Source: Halogeometricum pallidum JCM 14848 | GTDB lineage: Archaea; Halobacteriota; Halobacteria; Halobacteriales; Haloferacaceae | Length of the DNA stretch: 64,000 bases | Assembly: GCF_000337095.1 (NCBI RefSeq) | Contig: NZ_AOIV01000041.1 | Coordinates: 118,977-182,976, forward strand | Reading direction: 5' to 3' | Shown here: one piece after another, positions 43,351 through 44,227 of the stretch | Position numbering within the stretch: the stretch's first letter is position 1 | How the letters are laid out: each line of letters starts with the position of its first letter | Translations under genes and position numbers: made by a program | The notes under the pieces: generated by a model | The model's database searches: none | What the model saw: only the letters and a program-made list of their open reading frames with translations | Told to the model about the DNA's origin: nothing

Positions 43351-43425
43351 AGCGGGATGGGATAGCCAGGAGATTCCGCCGGGCTCATAACCCGGAGATC
43401 GGTAGTTCAAATCTACCTCCCGCTA
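43351..43425 (+). tRNA. tRNA-Met initiator (CAT anticodon)
   Basis: The 75-nt sequence folds to a full cloverleaf. The acceptor stem is AGCGGGA (43351-43357) with TCCCGCT (43418-43424) and discriminator A43425. The anticodon loop is CTCATAA. The anticodon stem CCGGG/CCCGG contains the three G:C pairs typical of initiators, and the A1-U72 pair agrees with archaeal initiator tRNA. CCA is not encoded. The T arm is GTAGTTCAAATCTAC. Its 3' end recurs in degenerate form downstream (see repeats). Confidence 0.97.
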
Positions 43426-43549
43426 TGGTTTTGCCGAACTCACGCCCCAAGCGAGGCGTTTCATCGCCGAGCGACGGTCGAGTTCGGTCCCATAGCTTCG
43501 AGGAGATTTGAACCGGAGAGTGACGTAAGCGTCAGCGAACGGAGCGACC

Positions 43550-43573
43550 GTGGTTCAAATCTACCTCCAGCTA
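43550..43573 (+). repeat. Degenerate copy of tRNA-Met 3' end (copy 1)
   Basis: 24 bp matching the tRNA 3' end (43402-43425) at 22 of 24 positions. The inverted fragment AGATTTGAACC at 43504-43514 is a perfect 11-bp complement of GGTTCAAATCT inside this copy (43552-43562). It could be an att-like duplication from past integration. It lacks the rest of the tRNA. Confidence 0.7.
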
Positions 43574-43592
43574 TTCTCCTGAAATTCACACT

Positions 43593-43703
43593 CCCGAGCG
43601 CCGAGTCTTGTCTCGGCGCGACGACGTGTTTCTGTACGAAGAGTGTAGGTCCCGAGCGGTGCGTTTTATCGCACCGCGAGGACGCGTTTCCGTGCGAAGA
43701 GAA
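43593..43703 (+). repeat. Two hairpin repeat units with compensatory stem changes
   Basis: Two units start CCCGAGCG at 43593 and 43651 (period 58 bp). Each has a perfect 8-bp stem with a 6-nt loop: GCGCCGAG/CTCGGCGC (43598-43619, loop TCTTGT) and GCGGTGCG/CGCACCGC (43656-43677, loop TTTTAT). Four of the eight base pairs differ between units, yet pairing is kept. A following 22-bp tail (ending GCGAAGAG or ACGAAGAG) matches at 18 of 22. A similar weaker stem occurs at 43455-43468. Confidence 0.65.
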
Positions 43704-43746
43704 CGAAGTCGTTTGAACGAGAGAACCGAGCGGTAGCGAGGTTCGC

Positions 43747-43770
43747 ATAGTTCAACTCTACCTCCTGCTG
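43747..43770 (+). repeat. Degenerate copy of tRNA-Met 3' end (copy 2)
   Basis: 24 bp matching the tRNA 3' end at 20 of 24 positions, in the same orientation as the tRNA and copy 1. It marks the right edge of the repeat region, 20 bp before the Rieske gene stop. Confidence 0.6.
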
Positions 43771-43789: not shown

Positions 43790-44227
43790 CTAGCTCCCAG
43801 TGAAGTCGATTCGGCTCCCCGACGAGAGGTCGTGGTCGCCCGACCCGCCGAGGTGTTCGAAGGAAAAGGCGTCGTCGGTGAGATACACCTGCCCGTCCTC
43901 GACGGCCACGTCGAACGTCGAGAGGACGGACCCCTCGCAGGGGCCGAAATCGCAGTACCCCGAGTCGCGTTGGAACGTCGCGCCGTGTTTCTGACAGACC
44001 AACTCGCCGTTTCTGACGTAGGCTCCCGACCCCTTGTCGAGGCGCACGTCCGTCCAGTGCGGACAGGTGTTCTCGAAGGCGACGACCGTTCCGTCGCCGA
44101 GTTTCGTCAGGATGGCCTCCGTCGTCTCCGCGTCCGCGTCCGCGCCCGCGCCCGAACGGACTGTAAAGAGGACGGTGCCGTCGGCGGGAACCTCGTCGGC
44201 GGCGATGATTCGGCGCTCGTCGTCCAT
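43790..44227 (-). CDS. Rieske [2Fe-2S] domain protein
   Basis: 145 residues. The Rieske ligands are Cys55-x-His57 (NTCPHWTD) and Cys78-x2-His81 (VCQKHGATFQ). The second-cluster GYCDFGPCEGS matches ferredoxin-type Rieske proteins rather than the bc1 subunit. It lacks a signal or membrane anchor, so it is probably a soluble electron carrier for an oxygenase or other redox partner not encoded nearby. The acidic Ala/Asp insertion near residues 26-36 is a halophile feature. It is transcribed towards the tRNA-repeat region. Confidence 0.92.
   Translation of the reverse strand: MDDERRIIAADEVPADGTVLFTVRSGAGADADAETTEAILTKLGDGTVVAFENTCPHWTDVRLDKGSGAYVRNGELVCQKHGATFQRDSGYCDFGPCEGSVLSTFDVAVEDGQVYLTDDAFSFEHLGGSGDHDLSSGSRIDFTGS

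Follow-up and report, generated by a model that had tools for sequence, protein, structure and literature searches.

Repeat units downstream of the tRNA-iMet gene

The DNA analysed, hereafter the window, is a 64,000-nucleotide stretch of Halogeometricum pallidum JCM 14848, in which a tRNA-iMet(CAT) gene on the forward strand (43351-43425) is followed on the same strand by two tandem units with the layout D0-X-I-Y-D1-X-I-Y-D2. Here D denotes a direct copy of tRNA positions 54-73, I an inverted copy of about positions 54-64, X a palindromic spacer, T-rich at its start, between the preceding D and I, and Y a purine-rich, partly palindromic stretch that separates I from D. D0, read from the sequence, is the corresponding part of the tRNA gene itself (43406-43425). 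The spacer of unit 1 (X1, 43426-43504) carries a T4 tract, an outer stem (43434-43441/43480-43487) and an inner hairpin (43451-43472), and by eye a similar spacer is also found behind iMet in five other genomes (G001, G002, G003, G004 and G010). It is followed by the I box GATTTGAA, inverted with respect to tRNA 54-61 (43505-43512), by a Y spacer (43513-43553) that terminates in the tRNA-independent consensus GACCGTGG, and by D1 (43554-43573), a 19/20 copy of tRNA 54-73. Unit 2 contains two spacer segments, X2a (43574-43649) and X2b (43650-43710), a degenerate I box, GTTTGAAC (43711-43718), a Y spacer with a hairpin GAACC...GGTTC around GAGCGGTAGCGAG (43719-43750), and the distal, degenerate D2 (43751-43770), which matches the tRNA at 17/20 positions. 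A 95-aa open reading frame antisense over the array (43461-43748, reverse strand) is probably spurious, and the gene beyond it (43790-44227, reverse strand) carries CPHW and CQKHGATF motifs, from which we take it to resemble a Rieske-type ferredoxin.

The original prediction described two units behind tRNA-iMet, with a 58-bp period, perfect 8-bp stems and 6-nt loops, and this was borne out, as was the tRNA call: the first hairpin, GCGCCGAG-TCTTGT-CTCGGCGC, lies at 43598-43619 in X2a and the second, GCGGTGCG-TTTTAT-CGCACCGC, at 43656-43677 in X2b, so that both fall in the X of unit 2, spaced 58 nt apart within 52-nt repeats of 77% identity. Four of the eight stem pairs had been said to differ, but the actual count is three (pairs 4, 5 and 7), plus one covarying pair within the loop (T-[Y]-TY-[R]-T), which is C-G in the first hairpin and T-A in the second. 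The weaker third stem with a similar loop is real, spanning 43451-43472 with the loop TTTCAT and closing via tandem G.A/A.G mismatches. Dinucleotide shuffles of the 361-nt region yielded two or more such hairpins in 1 of 2000 cases, and the entire window holds 10; the pair is non-random, and one such hairpin alone is not rare. Covariation was also found in homologous loci, where 20 distinct hairpins of this class have two-sided changes at 6 of 9 pairs (30 two-sided cells vs 8.8 when shuffled); since these were picked for the loop TYTYRT and at least 6/8 pairs, the percentage paired arises partly by selection, but the selection put no constraint on the loop pair, which was matched in every case (13 C-G, 7 T-A). 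The statement that the hairpins match no familiar family holds for Rfam: a scan of the window at gathering scores matched tRNA as the sole family, and an Rfam structured-RNA family for the hairpins was accordingly rejected. The hairpins are parts of tRNA-anchored repeat units and not stand-alone RNA; what had been noticed locally is genuine and belongs to an ordered system of wider extent.

The 58-nt tandem is itself probably a product of that system. X2a is identical to the unit 1 spacer of the congener G004 at 70 of 75 positions, and X2b matches G004 unit 3 at 36/43, G004 unit 1 at 40/52 and X2a at 40/52. Because the G004 equivalents sit in separate units with D copies between them, the tandem is best explained as two spacers, X2a and X2b, that were probably fused once the intervening I-Y-D was lost, although a local duplication followed by divergence is an alternative.

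Boundaries and spread across tRNA genes

The D copies begin at T54 and stop at base 73. In a boundary profile of 228 D copies (accepted at ≥17/20 in motif-enriched loci, with full-length tRNA copies excluded), positions 54-73 are 0.89-1.00 identical to the host tRNA; before D identity is 0.98 at -1, 0.72 at -2, 0.27 at -3 and 0.13-0.60 further out to -30, and after base 73 it is about 0.5, both sides being T-rich. The stretch before D is occupied by GACCGTGG, which, like CAGGGAG, is a tRNA-independent flank common to units of different anticodon types.

Within these boundaries both D and I follow the tRNA that they accompany. At positions 62-73 the first D matches its own tRNA at 11.39 of 12 positions vs 5.30 of 12 for other tRNAs (n=177). 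Where the host tRNA has G57, D has G in 11/12 and I has C in 7/7, vs 12/234 and 9/212 for hosts with A57, counts that come from units accepted at ≥15/20 with I at ≥9/12, thresholds that favour matches. When I was located independently of the tRNA (192 of 246 units), it complemented host positions 62-64 at 0.86/0.68/0.56 vs 0.55/0.38/0.23 for other tRNAs; complementarity was marginal at 65 (0.44 vs 0.33) and at background at 66-69. A full-length inverted tRNA end was thus rejected for I, as tracking ends at position 64-65, and a retrocopy of mature tRNA was rejected for D, which is followed by CCA in 1 of 246 units. As the sequence differs from one tRNA to the next, these common boundaries must have been set repeatedly, which may point to a process recognising tRNA architecture.

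Such units are not confined to tRNA-iMet. A search of this genome with RF00005 gave 50 tRNA matches and left 42 genes for scoring, after de-duplication had removed iMet and the copies of Gly-GCC and Asp, and T-arm parsing had removed others. A copy of the gene's own positions 54-73 lies within 450 nt downstream of 16 of the 42 at ≥17/20, three of them neighbouring tRNA-Arg(GCG) genes, and of 19 at ≥15/20; upstream, own copies were found for 0 of the 42 scored genes at ≥17/20 and for one at 15/20, and control probes from other tRNAs matched in 11 of 1714 tests. Tandem tRNA copies are also seen in this genome (L002 1370-1847, L003 and L122), comprising three Gly(GCC) with N between, two Asp(GTC) and three Arg(GCG), and represent either real duplication or an assembly artefact. 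In other loci units occur behind Ser, Leu, Thr, Asp, Lys and other tRNAs, and 246 units, from a locus set that is enriched in that many were fetched by motif, spread over 35 anticodon types with an X-I-Y length of 42-369 nt (median 107).

The motif is near-restricted to one order, the window's own. Of the 194 genomes in a class sample, all from the window's order, 167 contain the pattern GATTTGAAN{20,50}GGTTCAAATC, with 0 for the reversed control, and in a phylum sample the pattern was present in 69 of 81 genomes of that order vs 3 of 311 others. In a scan of an 84,980-species collection, which gave at least 120 stretches, 78 of the 80 matches listed carry haloarchaeal names; the two others among those listed are 'Euryarchaeota' L142, beside an iMet gene, and Methanofastidiosia L156, rejected as an array for being merely the T-arm of a tRNA-iMet. 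Counted individually (82 matches in 80 loci), 70 of those listed follow a tRNA of the same strand at a distance of 34-354 nt, 6 have an opposite-strand tRNA within about 250 nt and 4 lie at the end of a stretch, the last two being L156 and L169, which is 3.1 kb off behind an insertion. A literature search, mostly of work outside subscription journals, found no description of such arrays, and this does not establish their absence from print.

Turnover between relatives and mode of pairing

Close relatives differ by whole units. At the megaplasmid iMet locus of Haloferax gibbonsii, strains ARA6 (L278) and LR2-5 (L279) carry different cassettes between near-identical flanks, with breakpoints at the end of D0 and the start of D1 and a distal spacer common to both; a longer ancestral array that lost different units in the two strains would leave the same picture. 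In one genus (52 species searched) the fetched iMet loci comprised 12 filled and 12 empty, and the filled/empty state needs at least four changes on a downstream-gene tree of 23 loci (left out were L290, with no gene in reach, and the loci lacking a recognised iMet: L302, L304-L307 and L309). The sister species L280 (filled) and L292 (empty) are exactly one 136-bp unit apart, with flanks 97.6% identical before and 94.5% after the unit, and the empty L292 equals the filled L280 minus the unit and one D, as insertion with target duplication requires. Because L292 is nested among filled loci on the tree, the difference is a precise loss; among the 23 loci a loss was clear and a fresh gain was not. 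Amplification is seen in L316, where four identical tandem units of 111 bp each lie behind tRNA-Lys. Of the 66 arrays that hold two or more D copies (D at ≥13/20), 36 have a first D more like the tRNA than the last, 3 show the reverse and 27 show no difference, a distal decay that could be drift of the last copy. After the last D in L320 and L321, which come from sister species with 8 differences in the upstream 300 nt, a native T-rich iMet hairpin has, by eye, changed in both arms in a manner that looks compensatory.

The original prediction left open whether the fold acts as structured RNA or as a DNA cruciform, and the I-D pairing favours the cruciform over the RNA. By positional count, I-D pairs at 54-64 include 62 G.T and 64 A.C among 2409 cells (24:18 at 54-61 and 38:46 at 62-64), whereas tRNA T-stems in 150 genes, selected for at most one non-pair each, gave 45:0 by position. 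As G.T and A.C are equal between I and D and 45:0 in T-stems, I-D pairing on balance looks constrained, or made, in DNA. The flank pair next to D (-1), with 112 G.T and 2 A.C, points the opposite way and speaks for RNA; the ratios are 13:2 at -2 and, further out, 9:8 at -3, 29:47 at -5 and 3:13 at -6. Stems of at least 8 pairs numbered 203 vs 114 in shuffles of the same units, with 22 G.T and 38 A.C. Two other comparisons were discarded: an ungapped stem finder gave 45:42 on units and is uninformative because it gives 21:19 on tRNA genes, and the 235:0 of an ARAGORN-bracket tRNA control comes from brackets that seem to omit A.C pairs.

Hairpin apices were compared with shuffled sequence in the same 246 units. 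GCGNAGC was present at the apices of 118 units vs 22 in shuffles, with all four N represented, and CGAGCGNAGCGAG in 51 vs 0; GCGAAGC is a very stable DNA mini-hairpin. CGANGCG was found in 96 of 246 units vs 50 shuffled, although this pattern overlaps the motif itself, and enrichment of GCGNNAGC in units was not clear (35 vs 25.6 shuffled). Among apex loops, 11 were GNRA and 27 GNYA, so that GNRA was not favoured. CGAGCGNAGCGAG is not confined to tRNA units: it has 16-76 copies in each of 15 haloarchaeal genomes vs 0-9 in ten other genomes of the phylum, although these counts are no measure of enrichment, as the reversed-pattern control overlaps the motif.

Proposed mechanism and alternatives

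The reading that we prefer, at close to even probability, is that the stretch 43426-43770 consists of non-coding DNA cassettes that are arrayed behind tRNA-iMet as their anchor and turned over as whole units. In this model, D copies of tRNA positions 54-73 would flank each X-I-Y cassette, and the units would be created by site-specific recombination or integration with recognition of the T-arm, for which a tyrosine recombinase is a candidate. Ordinary recombination between D copies could then delete, amplify or swap units, such that cassettes would be lost, amplified, exchanged and presumably gained as wholes at D copies, and the 58-nt tandem would have arisen when a D between two spacers was lost. 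Pairing between I and D would most likely act in DNA, as a cruciform or a folded single strand, and pairing within X and Y may do so too. The architecture is surprising and the comparative evidence for it is strong. It is widespread at haloarchaeal tRNA genes, with tRNA-end copies bounding exchangeable DNA blocks; it makes the existence of an archaeal recombination system acting on folded DNA or tRNA T-arms testable, and small-RNA, terminator and provirus annotation near these genes must allow for such arrays. Haloferax is amenable to genetics, so that experiments can decide the matter.

A more specific and rather improbable form of this model is an archaeal integron-like system, in which the tRNA T-arm is the primary site, the I-Y-D hairpins are cassette ends, and dozens of tRNA genes are each followed by an ordered array in which a host recombinase stores gene-less cassettes. 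The likeness to integron arrays, with their folded single-strand attC sites and attI, is a general resemblance and not a test of membership: in both, cassettes follow one another between copies of one core site, each closes with an imperfect inverted repeat whose arms co-vary (here I-Y-D), and the proximal copies are the best preserved. Here, however, the core is tRNA 54-73 and varies with each tRNA, and no cassette gene was noted. CRISPR arrays similarly have a repeat-spacer layout with a degenerate distal repeat, and casposons duplicate their target at a tRNA 3' end, as in these arrays; unlike in either, the spacers here are related palindromes, and Cas1 was not found in this genome (G000) nor in 9 of 15 other motif-rich genomes. 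REP/BIME palindromic repeats, as generally described, are also short intergenic palindromes in many copies, whereas the present units accompany tRNA genes and have a D and I specific to their host, and G163, which carries the motif, gave no Y1 transposase match.

Candidate enzymes were compared between this genome plus 15 motif-rich genomes and 19 of the 27 motif-free genomes from the class sample. Tyrosine recombinases (PF00589, searched as a whole family) were present in all 35 genomes, whether or not the motif was there, and gave no discrimination. Cas1 showed no association with the motif (6/16 motif-rich vs 7/19 motif-free), and Cas1-driven arrays were rejected for this reason. A weak association was seen for the Y1 transposase (15/16 vs 12/19; Fisher p 0.047).

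Alternatively, the arrays could be a neutral by-product, with template switching during replication at tRNA genes copying the T-arm and tidying palindromes, and with slippage or homologous recombination expanding and deleting units, such that neither an enzyme nor a function is needed. We consider this unlikely. Plain recombination between 20-bp direct repeats could account for units that are lost, swapped or amplified, precise deletion and identical tandem units being its expected products, and repeat-mediated deletions are reported in Haloquadratum (PMC3119063). Matching arms, too, can arise by template switching without function, and the equality of I-D G.T and A.C, as well as the two-arm change seen by eye in the native hairpin of two sister species, would fit such an origin. 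However, random switching would not be expected to set boundaries at T54 and base 73 at 35 anticodon types or to give flanks common across them (GACCGTGG and CAGGGAG), and the near-restriction to one order also argues against it. The covariation between units had been taken to indicate selection rather than drift of a dead repeat; a dynamic array agrees with the second part of that claim, whereas the covariation may stem from selection or from a palindrome-making mutational process.

Transcription offers another explanation, in which the units act as folded RNA, as a tRNA 3' trailer, terminator or processing decoy, with either the tRNA end or D as a possible pairing partner of I; this we regard as distinctly unlikely. 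The X spacer is T-rich directly after base 73, and its T tract and hairpin resemble a haloarchaeal terminator, a T-stretch plus C being described for terminators in Haloferax (PMC7237163). By eye, empty sites such as L293 also have a T-rich tract and hairpin, and the covariation of the hairpins and the T.G at the pair adjoining D (110 of 219) are likewise as expected of RNA. However, I-D A.C is as common as G.T, in contrast to tRNA T-stems, GNRA loops are not favoured, and the tRNA-specific D copy would remain unexplained.

Least probable, and very unlikely in our view, is that the units are footprints of tRNA-targeting proviruses or plasmids, that is, att sites left by repeated integration and decay; the pleolipovirus/IntSNJ2 type was rejected, as D spans 54-73 and two viral attP lack the T-loop copy and the I box. 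Such elements do use haloarchaeal tRNA 3' ends (PMC8371274 and PMC7911831) and, like the arrays, have a direct repeat of the host tRNA 3' end beside the tRNA. However, their repeat covers 61-73 where that of the arrays covers 54-73, the array units are 42-369 nt (median 107), and I and Y are missing from the two att sites compared. The annotated attP of Halfgib1 and Harhisp1 (13 and 15 nt) begin at tRNA position 61, as set by comparison with tRNA-Arg and tRNA-Ala ends in other loci, and hold no T-loop copy, I box or GACCGTGG; HRPV-9, which carries no att annotation, was left out. Viral collections also speak against this origin, no unit having turned up in an exact-pattern search of viral_contigs or a blastn search of phages. 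A plasmid search returned the two Haloferax gibbonsii iMet loci and, with a Ser unit, one 34-nt bacterial match. In favour of proviruses, a fragment that resembles a tyrosine integrase in its N-terminal part and shares about 30-33% identity with integrases of haloviruses lies at 498-908 of L169 (Haloterrigena salina), within the 3.1-kb insertion that separates tRNA-Val from its array.
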